A stretch of 64,000 bases of DNA, taken from Streptomyces griseoluteus (GTDB taxonomy: Bacteria > Actinomycetota > Actinomycetes > Streptomycetales > Streptomycetaceae). The notes beneath the pieces were generated by a model that saw only the letters and a list, made by a program, of their open reading frames with translations, did not search any database and was not told the origin of the DNA. Location: contig JOBE01000020.1 of the NCBI GenBank assembly GCA_000717735.1, forward strand, positions 1 to 64,000. The letters run 5' to 3'. A program made the position numbers and the translations under genes. Shown here piece by piece: positions 1 through 55,837 of this stretch. Position 1 is the stretch's first letter. Every line of letters starts with the position of its first letter.

Positions 1-132
1 TGGTGCGTGTGATCGCAAGGCGGAGGAGGGAGTCGACGCGGAGCGTTGGGGACCGACGACAACGCGGCGAGCGCGCGTGCCGGGCCCCGCGAGCCCGGCC
101 TGATCCAAAAGACAGGCCCTAGGCTGACCGGC

Positions 133-47386: not shown

Positions 47387-47836
47387 TCAGAGGTAGTACT
47401 GGAGCAGGGTGGCCGCGTCGACGGTGCCGATGAGCTGCGGCCGATCGTCGTGGTAGTCGACGACCACGACGAGATGGCCGCCGGTCCGCTCCATGAGCGA
47501 GGCCATGTGGAGGGGTGAGGCATCGGGGCTCACGACGGCCGGTGCGGGCGGGCGCTTGGGCAGCACATCGGCGAGCCGGAGAGATGCCGCACGGGCCCGG
47601 ACGGCGTCATCGAGAGACGCCTCCGCCACTGCGGCAAGGAGCGGGTCCTCCCGTACGGGGTCGGGCAGGGCAGCTGCCAGGACGTCTGCCGCGGGAACGA
47701 CCGTCAGCGGATGACCGTCCTCGCTCACGACGACGAGAGCCGGGGACCGTTCACGGACCAGCAGTGCCGCGGCCTCCCTCAAGGTGACATGCGGGTGCAC
47801 GGCGGTGGAGGGCCAGGCAAGTTCACGTGCGCGCAT
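47387..47836 (-). CDS. CBS-domain pair protein
   Basis: A 149-aa cytoplasmic protein consisting of two CBS motifs (VHPHVTLREAAALLVRERSPALVVVSEDGHPLTVVPAADVL and SPLHMASLMERTGGHLVVVVDYHDDRPQLIGTVDAATLL). The linker between them is long and helical. CBS pairs bind adenine nucleotides. It overlaps the end of the CPA1 antiporter gene by 14 nt, so it is a likely nucleotide-sensing regulator of that antiporter (inference from coupling). Confidence 0.85.
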   Translation of the reverse strand: MRARELAWPSTAVHPHVTLREAAALLVRERSPALVVVSEDGHPLTVVPAADVLAAALPDPVREDPLLAAVAEASLDDAVRARAASLRLADVLPKRPPAPAVVSPDASPLHMASLMERTGGHLVVVVDYHDDRPQLIGTVDAATLLQYYL

Positions 47837-49073
47837 GGGGGAGGGCCTCGGTGGTCGTCGGCTCGGTGCAGGGTCGGGGCTGGGGCGTGGTGCCGGCCTC
47901 GACGAGGTCGTCGACGTGGAAGAGGCGGGCGATGGGGACGTCGGTGCTGCTGTGGGCGATGATCGAGAAGGCGATGCAGACCGCGATCAGCGTGTACGCC
48001 TCCTGCCCCTGTGGGATGCCGGCCTGGAGGACCAGCAGGCCGTAGACGACCGAGGCGAACCCCTTGGGCCCGAACCAGGCGGCAACCAGCTTCTCCCGGC
48101 GGTCGATCCGGGTGCCCCACAGCGACAGCAGCAGCGAGCCCGGCCTGATCAGCACGATCGCGAGGACCACGGCCGCGTATCCGCCCAGGGTGAGGTCTCC
48201 GAACAGCTGCGGGGTGAGGAGCGCTCCGAACACGAGCAGGGCGGCGAACTTGGCGAGTTCGGCCAGCGACTCCCCCAACGGCTCGAAGGCGTTCTTCGAC
48301 TCCGGGGATACGGCGGCGAGGACGGCACCCGCGGAGAAGGCCGCGAGGTAGGGGTTGGCGTGGGTGAGGTGGCAGGCGGCGTAGAGGATGATGCCGGTGG
48401 CCAGCGGAAGGAGCGGCTGGAGCTTGGGCTCCGCGCCGAGCAGCCGGAAGCGTACGAGCCCGTTGACGATCAGGGGCAGCAGCACGCCGAAGGCGAGGCC
48501 GAGACCGAGCTCCAGGGCGATGCTTCCGTACGACGCCTCGGCGCCGACCGCGGTCGGCCCGGCGGCGGCGATGAGGATCAGGACGACGGGCAGGGCGAGT
48601 CCGTCGTTGATGCCGCTCTCGACGTTGAGGAGCTCACGGAGGCGGGCGGGGACCTCCTTGCGGCCCACGATCGCGGAGGCGAACACCGGGTCCGTCGGTG
48701 CCAGGACCGCGCCGACGAGGAACGAGGTCGTCCAGTCCAGGCCGACGAGGTAGTGGGTGATCAGCGCCATGCCGACGCAGGCGAGCGGCATACCCAGACC
48801 CAACGCCCTTGCCGGGTTACGCCAGTTGGCGCGCAGCTTGGCGAAGGAGACGTGCATGCCGTCGGTGAACAGGACGGCGAACAGGGCGAGGTCGGCGGTG
48901 ACCGCCACGATCTCGCTCTCGGGCGAGATGTGGATCAGCCCGAGGAAGCCGTCGCTGACCAGTGCTCCGCCCACGAGGAAGAGGAGCGAGGTGGACAGGA
49001 CGGTGCGGGCGGCGAGCCCGGACAGCAGGACCGCGACGAGCAGCGCGGCTCCGAAGACGGCGACGAGCACCAT
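47823..49073 (-). CDS. CPA1-type Na+/H+ (or K+/H+) antiporter
   Basis: A 416-aa cation:proton antiporter with about 12-13 helices. The CPA1 core is GAVLAPTDPVFASAIVG (unwound helix 4, TDP) and ELLNVESGINDGLALPVVLIL, where the ND pair carries the transported ion, followed by WFGPKGFASVVYGLLVL. The cytoplasmic tail is short, unlike plant-type NhaP. The ATG at 49073 has GGGGGA upstream. Its leader shares an unusual conserved element with the nhaA leader at 52.6 kb. It heads a six-gene operon. Confidence 0.92.
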   Translation of the reverse strand: MVLVAVFGAALLVAVLLSGLAARTVLSTSLLFLVGGALVSDGFLGLIHISPESEIVAVTADLALFAVLFTDGMHVSFAKLRANWRNPARALGLGMPLACVGMALITHYLVGLDWTTSFLVGAVLAPTDPVFASAIVGRKEVPARLRELLNVESGINDGLALPVVLILIAAAGPTAVGAEASYGSIALELGLGLAFGVLLPLIVNGLVRFRLLGAEPKLQPLLPLATGIILYAACHLTHANPYLAAFSAGAVLAAVSPESKNAFEPLGESLAELAKFAALLVFGALLTPQLFGDLTLGGYAAVVLAIVLIRPGSLLLSLWGTRIDRREKLVAAWFGPKGFASVVYGLLVLQAGIPQGQEAYTLIAVCIAFSIIAHSSTDVPIARLFHVDDLVEAGTTPQPRPCTEPTTTEALPHART

Positions 49074-49097
49074 GGCGGATATCCCCCGATCGGCAGA

Positions 49098-49158
49098 AAA
49101 GACATGTGTCCCTTGTTCGCCGACCAGGCTTCCCGGCACTCCGTCACGGACCTTACAC
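49098..49158 (-). ncRNA. Candidate structured leader of the CPA1 antiporter gene
   Basis: On the minus strand the order is GTGTAA (49158-49153), a small hairpin TCCG-TGA-CGGA (49150-49140), a 22-nt core (49139-49118, GTGCCGGGAAGCCTGG then TCGGCG) with GCCG/CGGC pairing, and a stem AGGGACA/TGTCTTT (49113-49098). The core is 21/22 identical to one before nhaA. The coding start is 44 nt further on. Confidence 0.55.
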
Positions 49159-49349
49159 ATTCCATACGTGGCATTGACAGGTCCTTGACGCGCAGCCAAC
49201 CCCTTGTACTGGTTGCCGGGGCCCGGCAACCATGGTGGCGCCGATGGCCTTGGCTGACGGGCCGGCGGGCGCTCCGGCGCGTATCGTCCGCGGCACGTGC
49301 GCCGGGAAGTCCGGTCGGCAACTGCCGACGCCTGCCCTGGAGCTCTCTC

Positions 49350-49661
49350 ATGCCGCCGCCGATGTCACCGACCGAGCGTCTCCGCCGTGGCTCGCGCGCT
49401 GTGCTGCGCCGGTTCCGTCCCCGCCGGGAACTCCTCGTGCTCCGCCTCAAGGGCGACCTCGCCGCCGACACGGTGCAGGACACCGGTCGTGTCCTGCGCG
49501 CGGCTCTGCGCGAAGAGCCGAAGGTGCTTGAAGTGGACGTGTCCCGCGTGACGCATCTCAGTCCGGACGGCGCCCTCCCTCTGTTCCTCGCCGCCCGGGG
49601 AACCCGCGGCCAGGGAACCCGGTTCAGGGCCACCCACGCTTCAGGACAGGGCGGGCGATGA
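49350..49661 (+). CDS. STAS-domain protein (anti-sigma factor antagonist-like)
   Basis: A 103-aa protein. A basic N-terminus, then a STAS fold: ELLVLRLKGDLAADTVQDTGRVLRAALREEPKVLEVDVSRVTHLSPDGALPLFLAARGTRGQGTRFRATHAS. The serine in THLSPDG is at the position phosphorylated in SpoIIAA/RsbV-type antagonists. GGAG is 7 nt before the ATG. No kinase or sigma gene is adjacent. Probably a component of a partner-switching stress module encoded elsewhere. Confidence 0.75.
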   Translation: MPPPMSPTERLRRGSRAVLRRFRPRRELLVLRLKGDLAADTVQDTGRVLRAALREEPKVLEVDVSRVTHLSPDGALPLFLAARGTRGQGTRFRATHASGQGGR

Positions 49662-50122
49662 TGCGCCAGACGGGCCTGGGGCGCTACCTGTCGGGCGAGG
49701 AACGTCGGGTAGCCGAGTACGCGTGGGGCGCACGTGCGACACCGGACGGGACGGGATCTCTCACGTACTCCGGAAGCACTCCTCCTCGCCCTCGGGGCAA
49801 GCCGACCGGGCTGGGTGCGGCATTTCTGGGCATCCCCACGCCACCGGGTGACCCGGGCCGGTCTTGTGCACGCGGCGCATTTCCGGGGCAGGCCGGCGCG
49901 CGAACAGCTCAGAGTGACCGCTCGGCCCGGGGACGGCGTCGGCCGCCGAGGTCCTGGCCCCGCCCGGGCCCGGCGTGAACCTGCGTTCACGCACCGGCGT
50001 CGACCTTGATCGGCTGCTCGGCACTGTACGGGCCGCCCTCCAGGCGCTCACCGCGGCGCAAGTGTGAGGGAGCTCCCGGGCGCGCATGGCGCCGCGGGTC
50101 AGCTCCAGGGGATTCCGGCGGG
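49662..50122. other. Gene-poor region, possibly degraded coding sequence
   Basis: About 460 nt. Several plus-strand frames contain short protein-like pieces (for example GVDLDRLLGTVRAALQALTAAQV ending at 50067), but none is an intact gene with a ribosome site. This might be a frame-shifted remnant of a second regulatory protein following the STAS gene. I cannot assign it. Confidence 0.35.
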
Positions 50123-50731
50123 TCAGACGCGGGTGAGGGCGGCAGCTCCGAAGGAGACGTCGAACCGGTCGCACCAGATGCTGACGCTGGGGTACTTCGA
50201 CCAGTCGACGTCCGTGGGCAGGGGATAGTTCTGGTCGCCCTTGTTTCCCTTGAGCTTGGCGAGGCTGACGTACTGGCCGTCGTCGAAGACTCCCCACCCG
50301 GCCTTGCCCTCCTTGACCGGCGCGTCGCTCAACCAGACCCGCAGATCGGGGCCGTTGCTCGTGTCGAGTTCTTCCAGCCGAAGCGTGTGGGTGCCGTCGG
50401 CGAGACGGACCACCTTCACCGTGCCGGTGGTCTCGTGCTCATGGCTGATGAACGTGCCCTGCGCGATCGTGACCGGCCCGGCTGCCGGCGGGGTCACCGA
50501 AGCCGAAGGGCCCGGGTCCATGGTCGGTGTGCCGGCGGGTGGTGTCGTGGACGGCGCGGTCGCAGAGGGCAGCGCCTCATGGACCGTCTCGTCCACCCAC
50601 AGGGCCCACGGCTTGAACCATGCCAGCCCTGCCGCCACAGCCACTACGACGGCGGCCACCAGGCCCGCCCACGGCTTCCTGCTCCGGCCCCGCTCCACTG
50701 GCACTCTCCCGCTTCTTTTCGCCGTCACCAT
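50123..50731 (-). CDS. Signal-anchored DM13-domain protein
   Basis: About 202 aa. A membrane anchor (WAGLVAAVVVAVAAGLAWF, about 22-42), a Pro/Thr/Ala-rich linker (about 55-85), then a DM13 domain. The domain holds GTFISHEHETTGTVKVVRLADGTHTLRLEELDTSNGPDLRVWLSD and ends VSIWCDRFDVSFGAAAL, with its conserved cysteine. DM13 domains are proposed electron-transfer or redox modules at the cell surface. The ATG at 50731 is chosen; a TTG five codons upstream is also in frame. It stands alone. Confidence 0.85.
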   Translation of the reverse strand: MVTAKRSGRVPVERGRSRKPWAGLVAAVVVAVAAGLAWFKPWALWVDETVHEALPSATAPSTTPPAGTPTMDPGPSASVTPPAAGPVTIAQGTFISHEHETTGTVKVVRLADGTHTLRLEELDTSNGPDLRVWLSDAPVKEGKAGWGVFDDGQYVSLAKLKGNKGDQNYPLPTDVDWSKYPSVSIWCDRFDVSFGAAALTRV

Positions 50732-51019
50732 CTGACCGTCATCCAACGCTGCCTGCCGCCTACGCGGAAGAACCCGGCGGGTGACGAAAGTCTTACCCTC
50801 TCTGGGCCCGCTTCACATGCGGCGGAGTTTCGTCGTGACTCCCGGCACCCCGGTCAGGACCAGCTCCGTCGGGGCCGAGGAAGCCCCGCACAGGGACGGC
50901 CGTGCCTCGGCGCTCGCGACAAGGTTCCCGGCGCATCGGCCGTCCCGTGAGGCAGGCCGTGAGCGGCATCAGGTACGGCCCCCGTACGCGCCACGCTCCG
51001 CAGGACGTGCGACACGGGC

Positions 51020-51289
51020 TCAGCCCTCCTTGTGGCAGATGCGGGCCACGAGGAGAGCCGCAAGACCCGCCCAGGGCAAGTGCGCCGGGCCGGAGAGATG
51101 CCAGCACAAGGCGCCCAGCACCGCGGCCGTGATGAGGAGCACGAGAAGCGCTCGCCCGCTCCGGAGGAACACCCACTCCTGCCGGGTGCTTCCCGGCTGC
51201 TTCATCTCGTGCACGGCGGTGCGGATGACCAGAAGGGCGAGCACGACGGCCGCGCCGAGAAGCGCCGGGGCAATGCCCTGCTCGTTCAC
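51020..51289 (-). CDS. 89-aa two/three-helix membrane protein co-transcribed with nhaA
   Basis: GTG start that overlaps the nhaA stop by 4 nt (GTGA). Hydrophobic segments are ALLGAAVVLALLVI, SGRALLVLLITAAVLGALCW and HLPWAGLAALLVA. It ends RICHKEG. It is probably a small accessory subunit of NhaA or a DUF-type membrane protein; no recognised family. Confidence 0.7.
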   Translation of the reverse strand: MNEQGIAPALLGAAVVLALLVIRTAVHEMKQPGSTRQEWVFLRSGRALLVLLITAAVLGALCWHLSGPAHLPWAGLAALLVARICHKEG

Positions 51290-52587
51290 CCCGAGCCGCC
51301 GGGCCTCGCGCCGGACTGGTAGATGTCGGGGATGCCGTCGGCGTCGTCGTCGCGCTCTTCCTCTTCCCACAGTTGCTTGTAGATGCGGTTGCGGCGGCGC
51401 AGGAGGACGGCTGCGAGGGCGGCAGCGGTGAGGGAGCCGACCAGGACGGCGGCCTTGACGTGCTCGGCTTCGGGGCCCGTCGGGAAGGCGAGTTCGCCGA
51501 TGAGGAGGGCGACCGTGAAGCCGATCCCGGCCAGAGTGGCCAGGCCCAGGACGTCGGCCCAGGCGAGGTCGGAGTTGAGCTCGGCGCGGGTGAAGCGTGC
51601 GGCGAGGTAGGTGCCGAGGAAGATGCCGAGGATCTTGCCGACGACGAGCCCGATGACGACGCCGAGGGGTTCGGGGTCGGTGAAGACGTGGACGAGGGCG
51701 CCGCCCGAGACACCGACACCCGCGGCGAACAGCGCGAAGAGGGGGACCGCGACGCCCGCGGAGAAGGGGTGGACGATGTGGGAGACACGGGCAGCCGGGG
51801 ACCGTTCCTCGCCCTTGTCACGGGTGGTACGCAGGATGAGGCCCATGGCGACGCCGGCGACGGTGGCGTGGACGCCGGAGTTGTACATCAGCGCCCAGAC
51901 CGCGAGCCCCAGGGGCACGTACCACCACCAGCCGCGCACCCGGAAGCGCTGGAGCACGTAGAAGGCGGCGAGTCCGGCGACGGCTGCGCCGAGGGCCCAG
52001 AAGTTCAGGTCCGAGGTGAAGAAGACCGCGATGATGAGGATGGCGCCGAGGTCGTCGACGACGGCCAGGGTGAGCAGGAACGCGCGCAGCGCGGAAGGCA
52101 GGTGGGTGCTGAGGACGGCGAGGACCGCGAGCGCGAAGGCGATGTCCGTGGCCATCGGCACGGCCCAGCCCTCAAGGCTCCCGCCGCCGATGGTGACGGT
52201 GAGCACGTAGAGAGCGGCGGGGACGGCCATGCCGCAGACGGCGGCGACGACGGGCAGGGCGGCGGTGGCGGGGGTGCGCAGCTCGCCGACGACGAACTCG
52301 CGCTTCAGCTCGATGCCGGCCACCAGGAAGAAGACCGCGAGCAGGCCGTCGGCCGTCCAGTGGGCGACGGAGAGGTCCAGGCCGAGGGCGGGGATGCCGA
52401 AGTGGAAGTCGCGTATCGACTCGTACGCCGCGCTCCACGGACTGTTCGCCCACGCGAGCGCGACGACGGCGGCGGCGAGGAGGACGAGTCCTCCCACGGT
52501 TTCCGTGCGGAGGGCTTCAGTGATCGCCTGTCGTTCGGACCAGGGCAACAGGCCGAGGATCACCTTGCGCGGGCGTGGCTGTGTCAT
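51286..52587 (-). CDS. nhaA: Na+/H+ antiporter NhaA
   Basis: A 433-aa NhaA with 12 helices. VAGIELKREFVVGELRTPATAALPVVAAVCGMAVPAALY is typical. The ion-binding aspartates sit in AVVDDLGAILIIAVFF (helix V DD pair, as Asp163/Asp164 in E. coli), and ALPVFALFAAGV-like and GLVVGKILGIFLGTYL helices follow. GGAGG lies 9 nt before the ATG at 52587. A ~40-residue charged C-terminal tail (EEEERDDDADGIPDIYQSGA) is an addition to the E. coli form. It is coupled to a small membrane protein and shares its leader element with the CPA1 antiporter. Confidence 0.94.
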   Translation of the reverse strand: MTQPRPRKVILGLLPWSERQAITEALRTETVGGLVLLAAAVVALAWANSPWSAAYESIRDFHFGIPALGLDLSVAHWTADGLLAVFFLVAGIELKREFVVGELRTPATAALPVVAAVCGMAVPAALYVLTVTIGGGSLEGWAVPMATDIAFALAVLAVLSTHLPSALRAFLLTLAVVDDLGAILIIAVFFTSDLNFWALGAAVAGLAAFYVLQRFRVRGWWWYVPLGLAVWALMYNSGVHATVAGVAMGLILRTTRDKGEERSPAARVSHIVHPFSAGVAVPLFALFAAGVGVSGGALVHVFTDPEPLGVVIGLVVGKILGIFLGTYLAARFTRAELNSDLAWADVLGLATLAGIGFTVALLIGELAFPTGPEAEHVKAAVLVGSLTAAALAAVLLRRRNRIYKQLWEEEERDDDADGIPDIYQSGARPGGSG

Positions 52588-52619
52588 GGGGGAAGGCCTC
52601 CGGGGCGGTTCGGCGGAAT

Positions 52620-52691
52620 GGGCACACGGCCCCTCGACGCCGACCAGACTTCCCGGCACACCAGCGCGTCGCGTTGACGCGTTCTTTACAC
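52620..52691 (-). ncRNA. Candidate structured leader of nhaA
   Basis: Minus-strand order matches the leader at 49.1 kb: GTGTAA (52691-52686), a hairpin CGCGTC/GACGCG (52681-52665), the 22-nt core (52659-52638; GTGCCGGGAAGTCTGG then TCGGCG) and a stem GGGC/GCCC (52632-52620). The flanking stems differ in sequence from the other copy but keep pairing. The start codon is 50 nt further on. Confidence 0.55.
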
Positions 52692-52746
52692 CCTATCGAG
52701 TGCTCGTGGGGCTCGCCAGGGTGGCTCTCAGCAGCCGAGACGGAAT

Positions 52747-52794
52747 GAAGGGCCCTGCTCTCACCACGGCGCGAGGTGAGTGGCAGGGCCCTTC
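52747..52794 (-). terminator. Terminator of the AGCS symporter gene
   Basis: A 12-bp outer stem GAAGGGCCCTGC / GCAGGGCCCTTC enclosing an inner CTCACC/GGTGAG pair, just beyond the symporter stop on the minus strand and before the nhaA leader. Confidence 0.75.
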
Positions 52795-52817
52795 GGGAGC
52801 CGGGCCGCCGGGGGCGG

Positions 52818-54362
52818 TCAGACGGTGGTCTTCACCGGCTCCTGGTCGGTGTCCTCGTCGGAGTTCGTGTCGAGGCCCGCGTCGCGCTTCTTGACGAAGG
52901 TGAGGAAGGTGTTCAGCTCGCGCTTGACGACGGGGGCGAGGAGGTAGAGGCCGATGATGTTGATGACCGCGAGCATGAAGAGCACCGCGTCGGCCATGTC
53001 GATCAGCGTCTGCAGGGTGAGCAGGGAGCCCGCGACCGCGAAGACGGTGTAGAGGACCTTGAAGGTCAGCTCGCTGGCCCTGCTGCGGCCGAAGAGGTGG
53101 GTCCAGGCCTTCATGCAGTAGTAGCCCCAGGTCAGCACCGTGGAGATGGCGAACAGCATGACCGCGACGGTGAGGACGTACGGGAACCAGGGCATGACCG
53201 TGGCGAAGGCGTCGGAGGTGATGGTGACGCCGCCGATGGACTCGCCGCCGTTACGGAGCTCGACGTAGCTGGCGGGGTTGGCGATGACGATGGTCAGGGC
53301 GGTCATGGTGCAGATGACGACCGTGTCGATGAACGGCTCCAGCAGGGCGACCAGGCCCTCGCTCGCGGGGTGCTTGGTCTTCACCGCGGAGTGGGCGATC
53401 GGGGCGGAGCCGAGGCCGGCCTCGTTGGAGAACGCGGCCCGCTTGAATCCGATGATCAGCGCGCCCAGGACACCGCCGGCGACGCCTTCGGGGTTGAACG
53501 CGCCCTCGATGATCGTGGAGACCGCGGAAGGCACTGCGGAGGCGTTGACGGCGATGACGACGAGGCAGGCGGCGATGTAGATGCCGGCCATCGCGGGAAT
53601 CAGCTTGCTGGTCACGGAGGCGATGGAGCGGATGCCGCCGAGGAGCACGATGCCGACGAGGGCGGCGATCAGGATGCCGAAGAACAGGGCGCCGGCGGAG
53701 GAGCCCAGGGCACCGTCCTCGCCGCCGGTGACGGAGACGAGCTGCGCGTAGGACTGGTTGACCTGGAAGAGGTTGCCGCCGAAGAGGCCGAAGAACAGGA
53801 TCATGAAGGAGGCGAGGACGGCGAGGACCTTGCCGAGGGTCTTGCCGTTCTTGCCGAAGCGCTCGGCCAGGCCCTTGGGCAGGTAGTGCATGGGGCCGCC
53901 GGAGACGGTGCCGTCGGGATGCACCTCGCGGTACTTCACACCGAGGGTGACCTCGACGAACTTGGTGGCCATGCCGAGCAGGCCGCACAGGATCATCCAG
54001 AACGTGGCCCCGGGGCCACCGATGGAGACGGCGACGGCGACACCGGCGATGTTGCCGAGTCCGACCGTGCCGGAGACGGCGGCGGTCAGCGCCTGGAAGT
54101 GGTTGACCTCGCCGGCCGAGCCCTTCTCGTCGTACTTCCCGCGCACCACGTCCACGGCGAGCCGGAACTTTCGCAGCTGGACGAAACCGAACCAGCCGGT
54201 GAAGACCAGACCGGCGACGACGAGCCACGCCACGATCAGCGGAAGCTCCGTACCTCCGACGGGCACGGAGTAGAAGACGATCTCGCCGAGCCGGGTGGCT
54301 ATCGGCTCGAAGAAGCCACTGACCGCCTTGTCGACGGACTGGGTGAGGGAATCGAGAGACAC
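52818..54362 (-). CDS. Sodium:alanine/glycine symporter (AGCS family)
   Basis: A 514-aa transporter with about eleven helices, LeuT fold. VSGTVGLGNIAGVAVAVSIGGPGATFWM is the AGCS helix-1 signature that forms the Na+ and amino-acid sites. Others are KFVEVTLGVKYREV, SGGPMHYLPKG and NEAGLGSAPIAHSA. It imports alanine or glycine with Na+. GTG start with GAGG upstream. It lies behind the two Na+/H+ antiporters in an ion-homeostasis region. No glycine riboswitch is visible in its leader; a Crp-type site is. Confidence 0.93.
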   Translation of the reverse strand: MSLDSLTQSVDKAVSGFFEPIATRLGEIVFYSVPVGGTELPLIVAWLVVAGLVFTGWFGFVQLRKFRLAVDVVRGKYDEKGSAGEVNHFQALTAAVSGTVGLGNIAGVAVAVSIGGPGATFWMILCGLLGMATKFVEVTLGVKYREVHPDGTVSGGPMHYLPKGLAERFGKNGKTLGKVLAVLASFMILFFGLFGGNLFQVNQSYAQLVSVTGGEDGALGSSAGALFFGILIAALVGIVLLGGIRSIASVTSKLIPAMAGIYIAACLVVIAVNASAVPSAVSTIIEGAFNPEGVAGGVLGALIIGFKRAAFSNEAGLGSAPIAHSAVKTKHPASEGLVALLEPFIDTVVICTMTALTIVIANPASYVELRNGGESIGGVTITSDAFATVMPWFPYVLTVAVMLFAISTVLTWGYYCMKAWTHLFGRSRASELTFKVLYTVFAVAGSLLTLQTLIDMADAVLFMLAVINIIGLYLLAPVVKRELNTFLTFVKKRDAGLDTNSDEDTDQEPVKTTV

Positions 54363-54778: not shown

Positions 54779-55837
54779 CTACCTGCCCTCTGGTGCCTGC
54801 GGCTCCTGACGGCCGGCGGTGAAGGGATACGTGTCGGTGTCGGCTTCGGCCGCGTCGGCGAGTGCCTCGGCAGCGGCCTCCGCCGCCTGCGCCGCGTCGT
54901 CGGCCGCCTGGGTGGCGGCCCTGTCCTCCGCGGACGTCTCCCGGACGGCCGGAGACGGGGGCAGCACCTCGTTGAAGGCGCGGGACACCCCTTGGAGCGC
55001 GGAGGTGACCTCGCTGGGGATCACCCAGAAGGTGCTGCCCGCGCCCTGGGCGAGCTGGGGCAGCATCTGCATGTACTGGTAGGCGAGGAGCTTGGGGTCG
55101 GGGTCGTTGCGGTGGACGGCCTGGAAGACCTCGTCGACGGCTCGGGACTGCCCCTCGGCCTTGAGGATCTCGGCGGTGCGGTTGCCCTCCGCCCGGAGCA
55201 CGGCGGCCTGTTTGTCCCCCTCGGCGGTGAGGATCTGCGACTGGCGCTGCCCCTCCGCCCCCAGGATCGCCGCCCGCTTGTCGCGCTCGGCGCGCATCTG
55301 CTTCTCCATGGCGTCCTTGATGGACTGCGGAGGGTCGATGGCCTTGATCTCCACGCGGTTGACCCTCAGCCCCCACTTGCCCGTCGCCTCGTCGAGCACG
55401 CCACGGAGCTGGTTGTTGATGGTGTCACGGGAGGTCAGGGTCTTCTCCAGGTCCATCGAACCCACGACGTTGCGCAAGGTGGTGACGGTGAGCTGTTCGA
55501 CGCCCTGCAGGAAGTCGGCGATCTCGTAGGCGGCCGCCCGCGGGTCGGTGACCTGGAAGTACAGCACGGTGTCGATCTCGACGACCAGGTTGTCCTCGGT
55601 GATGACCGGCTGCGGCCGGAACGAGACCACCTGTTCCCTCAGGTCGATCACCGGATAGACGCGGTCGACATAGGGGATGACGAGGTTGAGGCCCGGCCTC
55701 AGGGTGCGCCGGTAGCGGCCGAGGCGTTCGACGTTGCGGGCCCGCGCCTGCGGCACGATGCGTACCGCCCGCACCACGGTGAAGACCGCGAGGGCCGCGA
55801 GGATCAGACCGGCTATGAGCAGTCCCGGCACGTCCAT
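54779..55837 (-). CDS. SPFH/stomatin-like (paraslipin) protein
   Basis: A 352-aa protein. One N-terminal helix (about 4-24), then a Band 7/SPFH domain beginning VRIVPQARARNVERLGRYRRTLRPGLNLVIPYVDRV, with VVSFRPQPVITEDNLVVEIDTVLYFQVTDP and LRNVVGSMDLEKTLTSRDTIN. A helical Ala/Glu-rich segment follows (RAERDKRAAILGAEGQRQSQILTAEGDKQAAVLRAEGNRTAEIL), typical of oligomerising stomatins. The Ala/Glu/Asp-rich tail is disordered. It follows the NfeD gene by 3 nt, the usual SPFH-NfeD pairing. Confidence 0.93.
   Translation of the reverse strand: MDVPGLLIAGLILAALAVFTVVRAVRIVPQARARNVERLGRYRRTLRPGLNLVIPYVDRVYPVIDLREQVVSFRPQPVITEDNLVVEIDTVLYFQVTDPRAAAYEIADFLQGVEQLTVTTLRNVVGSMDLEKTLTSRDTINNQLRGVLDEATGKWGLRVNRVEIKAIDPPQSIKDAMEKQMRAERDKRAAILGAEGQRQSQILTAEGDKQAAVLRAEGNRTAEILKAEGQSRAVDEVFQAVHRNDPDPKLLAYQYMQMLPQLAQGAGSTFWVIPSEVTSALQGVSRAFNEVLPPSPAVRETSAEDRAATQAADDAAQAAEAAAEALADAAEADTDTYPFTAGRQEPQAPEGR

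Follow-up and report, generated by a model that had tools for sequence, protein, structure and literature searches.

Leaders of two antiporter genes

We analysed a 64,000-nucleotide stretch of Streptomyces griseoluteus DNA (assembly GCA_000717735.1, contig JOBE01000020.1, positions 1 to 64,000), referred to below as the window, which carries on its minus strand a CPA1-type cation/proton antiporter gene (cpa1) and nhaA. An earlier note on this DNA had described one structured element in the leaders of both genes and had proposed an actinobacterial cis-regulatory RNA for Na+ or pH. Both leaders do carry it: their 22-nt cores (49118-49139 and 52638-52659, minus strand) are identical at 21 of 22 positions and stand 45 nt (cpa1) and 51 nt (nhaA) from the start codon. 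Phylum-wide conservation, compensatory stem changes, orientation, a likely transcript-start position and gene associations all bear out a cis-regulatory RNA linked to genes of cation handling and antiport, and we consider it highly probable that this phylum-wide conserved leader element is a real one.

Allowing up to three mismatches, we found three matches to the 22-nt core in the window, against 0.01 expected by chance. The third (49299-49320, plus strand), absent from the earlier note, is degenerate and lies 30 nt 5' of a STAS-like open reading frame (ORF), less than 200 nt from the cpa1 leader. The consensus of the motif is GGNGn-GCCG-GGAAGnCUGGU-CGGC. A covariance model of the core with four base pairs (R1), based on alignment A1 of 59 of the 127 diverse sites described below, gave the three leaders the scores in Table 1; no other place in the window exceeded 14.9 bits. 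The genome holds two more exact copies of the core, one on contig C11 (L003) 5' of a second nhaA and one just past the window at C20:66209 (L004).

Table 1. Coordinates of the three leaders in the window and of the genes next to them
Feature	Position	Strand	Remarks
-10-like hexamer TAAGGT, cpa1 leader	49150..49155	(-)	7 nt 5' of conserved GG
cpa1 leader core GGAGT-GCCG-GGAAGCCTGGT-CGGC-G	49118..49142	(-)	P1 arms 49134-49137 with 49119-49122; 42.6 bits
Variable hairpin P2 (AGGGAC/GTCTTT), 3' of cpa1 core	49098..49113	(-)	
cpa1 anti-core TGCCGATCGGG	49085..49095	(-)	complementary to the core's CCTGGTCGGC
Shine-Dalgarno-like CGGGGGA, cpa1 leader	49082..49088	(-)	overlaps anti-core
cpa1-type cation/proton antiporter	47823..49073	(-)	PF00999
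CBS-domain ORF, directly 3' of cpa1	47387..47836	(-)	CBS ORFs elsewhere have their own leader copy
-10-like TAAAGA, nhaA leader	52683..52688	(-)	
5' hairpin CGCGTC/GACGCG, 5' of nhaA core	52665..52681	(-)	outside general motif
nhaA leader core GGTGT-GCCG-GGAAGTCTGGT-CGGC-G	52638..52662	(-)	P1 arms 52654-52657 with 52639-52642; 48.5 bits
Variable hairpin P2 (GGGC/GCCC), nhaA leader	52620..52633	(-)	
nhaA anti-core region CCGCCGAACC	52607..52616	(-)	pairs with core 3' half in predicted minimum-energy fold
Shine-Dalgarno-like CGGAGG, nhaA leader	52597..52602	(-)	
nhaA	51286..52587	(-)	PF06965
-10-like TATCGT, STAS leader	49282..49287	(+)	
Degenerate third core CGTGC-GCCG-GGAAGTCCGGT-CGGC-A, divergent STAS leader	49296..49320	(+)	27.2 bits
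STAS-like ORF	49350..49661	(+)	PF13466, E 5e-5, 23.8 bits, under Pfam cut-off 29.2

Conservation and covariation of the core

Searches across actinobacterial genomes, of the kind that the earlier note had called for, found the core conserved and linked to antiporter genes. The exact core was present in 119 of 121 genomes of the same genus, where a reversed-pattern control gave 0 of 121. At E<=0.01, R1 matched 196 of the 296 genomes searched in the class, at least two of them by doubtful weak hits (L240, L241). A 24-nt pattern, with one mismatch allowed, was positive in 57 of 198 genomes phylum-wide (reversed control, 0). A scan of named genomes yielded at least 119 loci, all of which were used downstream. 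Genera among the matches listed are Agromyces, Arthrobacter, Amycolatopsis, Nocardia, Frankia, Micromonospora, Streptosporangium, Blastococcus, Streptomyces and others; one Solirubrobacterales and one Chloroflexi metagenome-assembled genome are also listed. A perfect core on a Chloroflexi-binned contig (L016, 7044-7062, plus strand), 5' of an amino-acid-permease-like ORF, may reflect transfer or mis-binning.

When 30 nhaA loci, a few of them truncated at contig ends, were chosen phylum-wide without reference to the motif, 15 had it (40.5-48.5 bits) and 15 did not, with 16.6 bits for the best other match. This split and its score gap indicate that the element is mostly either near-unchanged or absent. 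Phage records gave no match covering at least 80% of a 33-nt query; 17 of 51 matching plasmid records had a match with that coverage. Among the 30 plasmid rows listed, 24 had no annotated gene under the match, four had one and two records were unannotated; the motif is present on large actinobacterial plasmids (Streptomyces, Rhodococcus, Pseudonocardia).

In the core, positions 0-3 can pair with 15-18 as a stem, P1 (GCCG/CGGC), that closes the 11-nt loop GGAAGnCUGGU. Upstream of it, GG at -5,-4 and G at -2 were 99-100% conserved in 128 diverse sites found by the 19-nt core only, although GGNG was no part of the first search pattern. One site with the core and no GGNG (L060) was removed before the counts of 127. 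Loop position 9 is freely variable and position 11 rarely so, and the fold computed with RNAalifold consists of P1 plus G4.U14. At positions -1/+19, which covary (n=127), we found T-G in 55 sites, C-A in 33, T-A in 13, A-A in 7, T-C in 5 and other combinations in 14; a U.G, C.A or U-A contact may extend P1 below in most sites. In the weak hit L240, GCCGGGAAG runs straight into CGGTCGGC and part of the loop is missing, which may represent a shortened variant or chance.

Covariation in P1 was examined with stem-free searches of 296 genomes each, in which GGNG and the loop were fixed and the usual base was barred at one stem position. Three of the four stem positions were covered and gave 32, 35 and 40 hits, 57 of them distinct. 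The stem was fully complementary in 12 of the 57, compared with a mean of 2.27 and a maximum of 8 in 2000 shufflings of the arms. Eleven of the 12 (all but G205) were double swaps to U-A: at pair 1-17 (GTCG/CGAC) in three families, at pair 2-16 (GCTG/CAGC) in two families, and at pair 0-18 (TCCG/CGGA) six times in one genus. In alignment A2, restricted to 60 distinct rows and including L279 and L280, which break the stem, three of the four stem pairs were changed on both sides, a result matched by 1 of 500 shuffles, and the nine both-side-change cells were reached by none of the 500. An RNA reading had been expected to show covariation, and these compensatory U-A changes in three of four pairs provide it. 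An alternative stem, CCGG/CUGG, was pairable in 99.2% of cells yet had zero both-side changes and was rejected.

Pfam assigned the targets of the eleven swapped-stem sites to nhaA (4), a Proton_antipo_M protein of the Mrp/complex-I type (1) and ABC ATPases (6). The Proton_antipo_M copy (L269) would add a third antiporter type. The leaders with the TCCG/CGGA stem (L273-L278, one genus) lie 5' of an ABC ATPase gene, and the nearest NCBIfam model to the product at L276 is drrA.

Promoter position, flanking hairpins and target genes

A promoter-like hexamer usually precedes the motif by 7-8 nt. TANNNT ended at -15..-11 in 84 of 127 sites, compared with 4-8 in upstream-shifted windows, and its end fell exactly at -13 in 58 sites and at -14 in 19. 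Among the 61 named sites from outside Streptomycetaceae, 52 had the box at the usual place, and all eleven swapped-stem sites had it at the usual distance. Given the usual spacing between a -10 element and the start of transcription, transcription would begin at, or about one base before, GGNG, and the core therefore likely stands at the start of the transcript, as judged from the letters of these sites. Within the window the expected spacing is kept in the cpa1 (TAAGGT) and STAS (TATCGT) leaders. The box of the nhaA leader is 20 nt 5' of GG, not 7, and the extra 5' hairpin would be transcribed. A sigma-70 consensus scan of 48900-53000, which would miss promoters whose -35 element is weak, returned no promoter.

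The GTGTAA shared by the two leaders, which the earlier note counted as part of the RNA while cautioning that it could belong to a -10 element, is best read in the cautious way, as part of the promoter with TAAGGT and TAAAGA as the -10 elements. The proposed upstream hairpin likewise did not hold as part of the RNA: of seven upstream windows, two gave t -2.6 and -2.5 and the rest -0.8 to 0.7, and the cpa1 version would consume the motif's own conserved GG. The second hairpin, 3' of the core (P2), fared better. It is present in both the cpa1 and nhaA leaders, and across 132 sites the 22-nt window at +19 is on average more stable than its shuffled versions by 0.96 kcal/mol (t -4.0). Outside Streptomycetaceae, the 61 named sites show the same trend (-0.84, t -2.3); windows from +23 onward fold no better than shuffles. 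A variable hairpin after the core is thus a general, weak trend.

Counted by site, antiporter homologues identified with tblastn began downstream of the motif and on its strand in 76 of the 127 cases, and in no case did one begin on the opposite strand within 700 nt. The -10-like element, whose distance is near-fixed in 84 of the 127 sites, and the inverted-repeat character of GCCG/CGGC are what one would expect if the core were an operator in the DNA, spanning about +1 to +25 just 3' of the -10 element, with the two arms as half-sites for a transcription factor. We regard this as improbable, since the compensatory swaps alter both arms and keep only their complementarity, the motif has a single orientation to antiporter genes (76 sites vs 0), it is complementary to the Shine-Dalgarno region, and the box in the nhaA leader of the window, at 20 nt from GG instead of 7, means that the -10 spacing is not rigid.

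The genes behind the leader were defined by a heuristic for the ORFs of all 160 sites, some of which have an incorrect start or frame (L019 and L253 among them). Pfam was run on cluster representatives, and the cluster counts rest on blastp linkage. At the 127 diverse sites, 71 targets fell in the nhaA cluster, 12 in the PF00999 exchanger cluster and 8 in the CBS cluster; smaller clusters were ABC ATPases (4), APC-like permeases (3), PPDK-like proteins (3), alpha/beta hydrolases (3) and DUF6653 (2), and the ten largest held 110 of the 127 sites. One-off targets included TrkH, TrkA_N, a Na/Ca exchanger, DUF2254 and PP2C. The NCBIfam models nearest to cpa1 of the window are 'potassium/proton antiporter' models, and the nearest to two ABC ATPases tested is drrA, all under their cut-offs. 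The cpa1 gene recurs in 20 further regions of the same genus, and in three regions STAS ORFs with a leader of their own lie about 0.5 kb (L262, L265) or 4 kb (L260) from it. From their sequences, the targets point to cation/proton balance, with some unexplained.

This breadth, with CBS, STAS and PP2C ORFs among the targets as in a stress regulon, would also suit a conserved actinobacterial protein, for example a sensor of ions, salt stress or the envelope, that binds the core as an RNA hairpin and so controls translation or stability of the message. All of the RNA-level evidence fits such a protein target equally well. We nevertheless think it unlikely, because the 11-nt loop and GGNG are near-unchanged phylum-wide, and such constancy is more characteristic of a pocket that the RNA itself builds.

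Anti-core pairing and the proposed ion-responsive switch

Complementarity and folding were assessed in the 135 of 160 sites with a start codon 18-90 nt away. Core segment 9..18 (yCUGGUCGGC) showed excess complementarity to the leader (mean dE -1.86, t -7.1, n=135), and three other core segments showed none. A set of 85 'non-Streptomyces' sites was only partly cleaned, and the test was repeated on 50 named sites outside Streptomycetaceae, where the segment gave a mean dE of -1.53 (t -4.4) against the last 40 nt 5' of the start. The corresponding controls were -0.13 for the reversed segment at these 50 sites and +0.06 for 226 motif-free leaders. A run of at least 6 bp was found in 101 of 135 leaders, and in 52 of those the partner ends 7-14 nt 5' of the start. 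The partner, or anti-core, lies beside or over the Shine-Dalgarno sequence, as GCCGATCGGG followed by GGA in cpa1 and CCGACCGGA followed by GG in the second nhaA. In the window leaders, pairing of the core:anti-core type is part of the predicted minimum-energy folds; in nhaA the match is interrupted, and its longest unbroken run, 5 bp, is at the Shine-Dalgarno sequence. P1 and the core:anti-core helix share the same bases, so that the RNA looks bistable. Pairing of the 5' GGNG with downstream C runs was also considered and was rejected, segment -5..3 having no excess complementarity (dE +0.39).

We propose that these genes are controlled by a small structured RNA that starts the mRNA or lies close to its 5' end. 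P1, its near-invariant loop and the near-invariant GGNG 5' of it would form a compact binding site. With no signal, the 3' half of the core (CUGGUCGGC) would pair with the anti-core beside or over the Shine-Dalgarno sequence, with the P2 hairpin inside the resulting loop, and translation would be low. The signal, most likely Na+ or Li+ and less likely pH, would stabilise the P1 form, so that the Shine-Dalgarno sequence would be freed and the antiporter made. The proposal draws on observed covariation in P1 and complementarity between core and anti-core, together with the conserved sequence, the linked genes, their orientation and the promoter-like spacing; its ON direction is taken by analogy from Li+/Na+ riboswitches, and a folding order is presumed. 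Translational control by the anti-core is probable. Direct sensing of a monovalent cation, with the ion ligand suggested by the same riboswitches, is an idea that we favour by a small step only, a riboswitch for such an ion being the best single reading, and the explanation as a whole, a small 5' RNA acting as a translational ON switch with Na+ or Li+ as the most likely signal, appears reasonably likely to us.

Several observations weigh against this explanation. Forcing P1 costs 10.6 (cpa1), 11.4 (nhaA) and 12.3 (STAS) kcal/mol, and P1 occurs in the predicted minimum-energy fold of only 1 of 135 leaders; a ligand, tertiary contacts or co-transcriptional folding would therefore have to compensate. 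Core:anti-core pairing of at least 5 pairs was present in 117 of 135 folds, with as many as 83.9 expected after shuffling the downstream sequence (41 vs 28.2 in the 50-site subset), only 68 of the 117 paired folds end 4-14 nt 5' of the start, and the t values given above are inflated because the sequences are related. The fourth stem pair and G4.U14 are invariant in A2, and the constancy of the loop there is partly by construction, since most rows come from loop-fixing searches; the unconditioned nhaA set shows the same loop constancy. Finally, the alpha/beta hydrolase, PPDK-like and drrA-like ABC ATPase targets have no evident ion link.

The core:anti-core helix could also regulate alone, as an RNA thermometer or a pH-responsive structure without a specific ligand. 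The window leaders do have this helix in their predicted minimum-energy folds, and -1/+19 is C-A, a pair that requires protonation, in 33 of 127 sites; T-G, however, exceeds C-A there (55 vs 33), and a zipper would not need an invariant loop and GGNG, which leaves this alternative very improbable.

Known RNA families were compared with the leaders. None of the 4227 families of Rfam 15 reaches its cut-off in the window, and 18 further loci gave only Ms_IGR-5, twice and away from the motif. Weak hits at E<=10 were all far below cut-off and were rejected: at the cpa1 leader Guanidine-III (E 6.9) and, outside the core, SECIS_4 (E 0.078); at the nhaA leader six, two of which, hya (E 5.3) and mir-572 (E 9.5), overlap the core. 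The comparison with nhaA-I and Na+-I that the earlier note had suggested gave no match for either in the whole genome (RF03057, nhaA-I or Li+-I, with Caulobacter vibrioides as positive control; RF03071, Na+-I or 'Sodium', with Lactococcus lactis as positive control); both control genomes did match. No hit named nhaA-II appeared at the leaders among the 4227 families, whose inclusion of nhaA-II was unchecked.

According to the available text of PMC9646797, the Li+-I and Li+-II riboswitches (nhaA-I and nhaA-II motifs) are short leaders commonly found 5' of nhaA, through which Li+ activates expression, and Na+-II variants are grouped with the nhaA-I motif. The element described here is likewise a short leader RNA 5' of nhaA, but it is actinobacterial, whereas Li+-I and Li+-II are reported from Proteobacteria and the words Actinobacteria and Streptomyces are absent from that text. 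Na+-I riboswitches (DUF1646 motif) are described as switching on genes of Na+ transport, antiporters among them, and as having an aptamer of stems P1 and P2 with conserved P2-loop nucleotides (PMC9337991, PMC9646797, available text), in contrast to the single 4-bp stem and 11-nt loop found here. The dauA motif (SRC-36-1) is a Streptomyces leader RNA of a STAS-domain gene with the Shine-Dalgarno sequence inside the structure (PMC11109978). It resembles the present element in that STAS genes are targets of both, but it is a three-stem junction with 57 Streptomyces representatives, and the words antiporter and nhaA are absent from the available text of that paper. An overlap with the STAS-linked subset is possible, dauA having been compared by description only. 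The word nhaA is also absent from the available texts of PMC8632094, PMC3765725 and PMC7266159. Among the open-licence PubMed Central results listed we found no description of the motif, and a search there with 13 letters of the core returned one unrelated paper. Ion-linked leader RNAs are already known as a kind; we did not find this architecture in any described family that was compared.

As in riboswitches generally, the element is a conserved, structured 5'-leader RNA with covariation. We tentatively suggest, with somewhat less than even confidence, that it is a new class of Na+ or Li+ riboswitch across Actinomycetota, with an aptamer of about 25 nt (one 4-bp stem, an 11-nt loop) that often starts the transcript and generally controls cation/proton antiport in the phylum. 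Such an aptamer would, to our knowledge, rank among the smallest known. If this is true, a large phylum with many antibiotic producers runs Na+/H+ antiport and related ion genes by an undescribed RNA, very small and suited to tests of ion selectivity, and its little-understood CBS, STAS, DUF6653 and DUF2254 target genes would be placed in ion homeostasis. It would also be an alkali-ion RNA sensor outside Proteobacteria, where Li+ riboswitches are reported (PMC9646797, available text).

In the window, nhaA is preceded by genes for a sodium:alanine symporter (PF01235, 52818-54362, minus strand) and an SPFH/Band_7 protein (54779-55837, minus strand), and the R1 search of the window found no leader for either. 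The copy just past the window (L004, minus strand) is perfect, with a -10-like TAGGAT, and lies 5' of a 128-aa ORF; an ORF on the opposite strand there resembles the alpha/beta hydrolases that are targets elsewhere.

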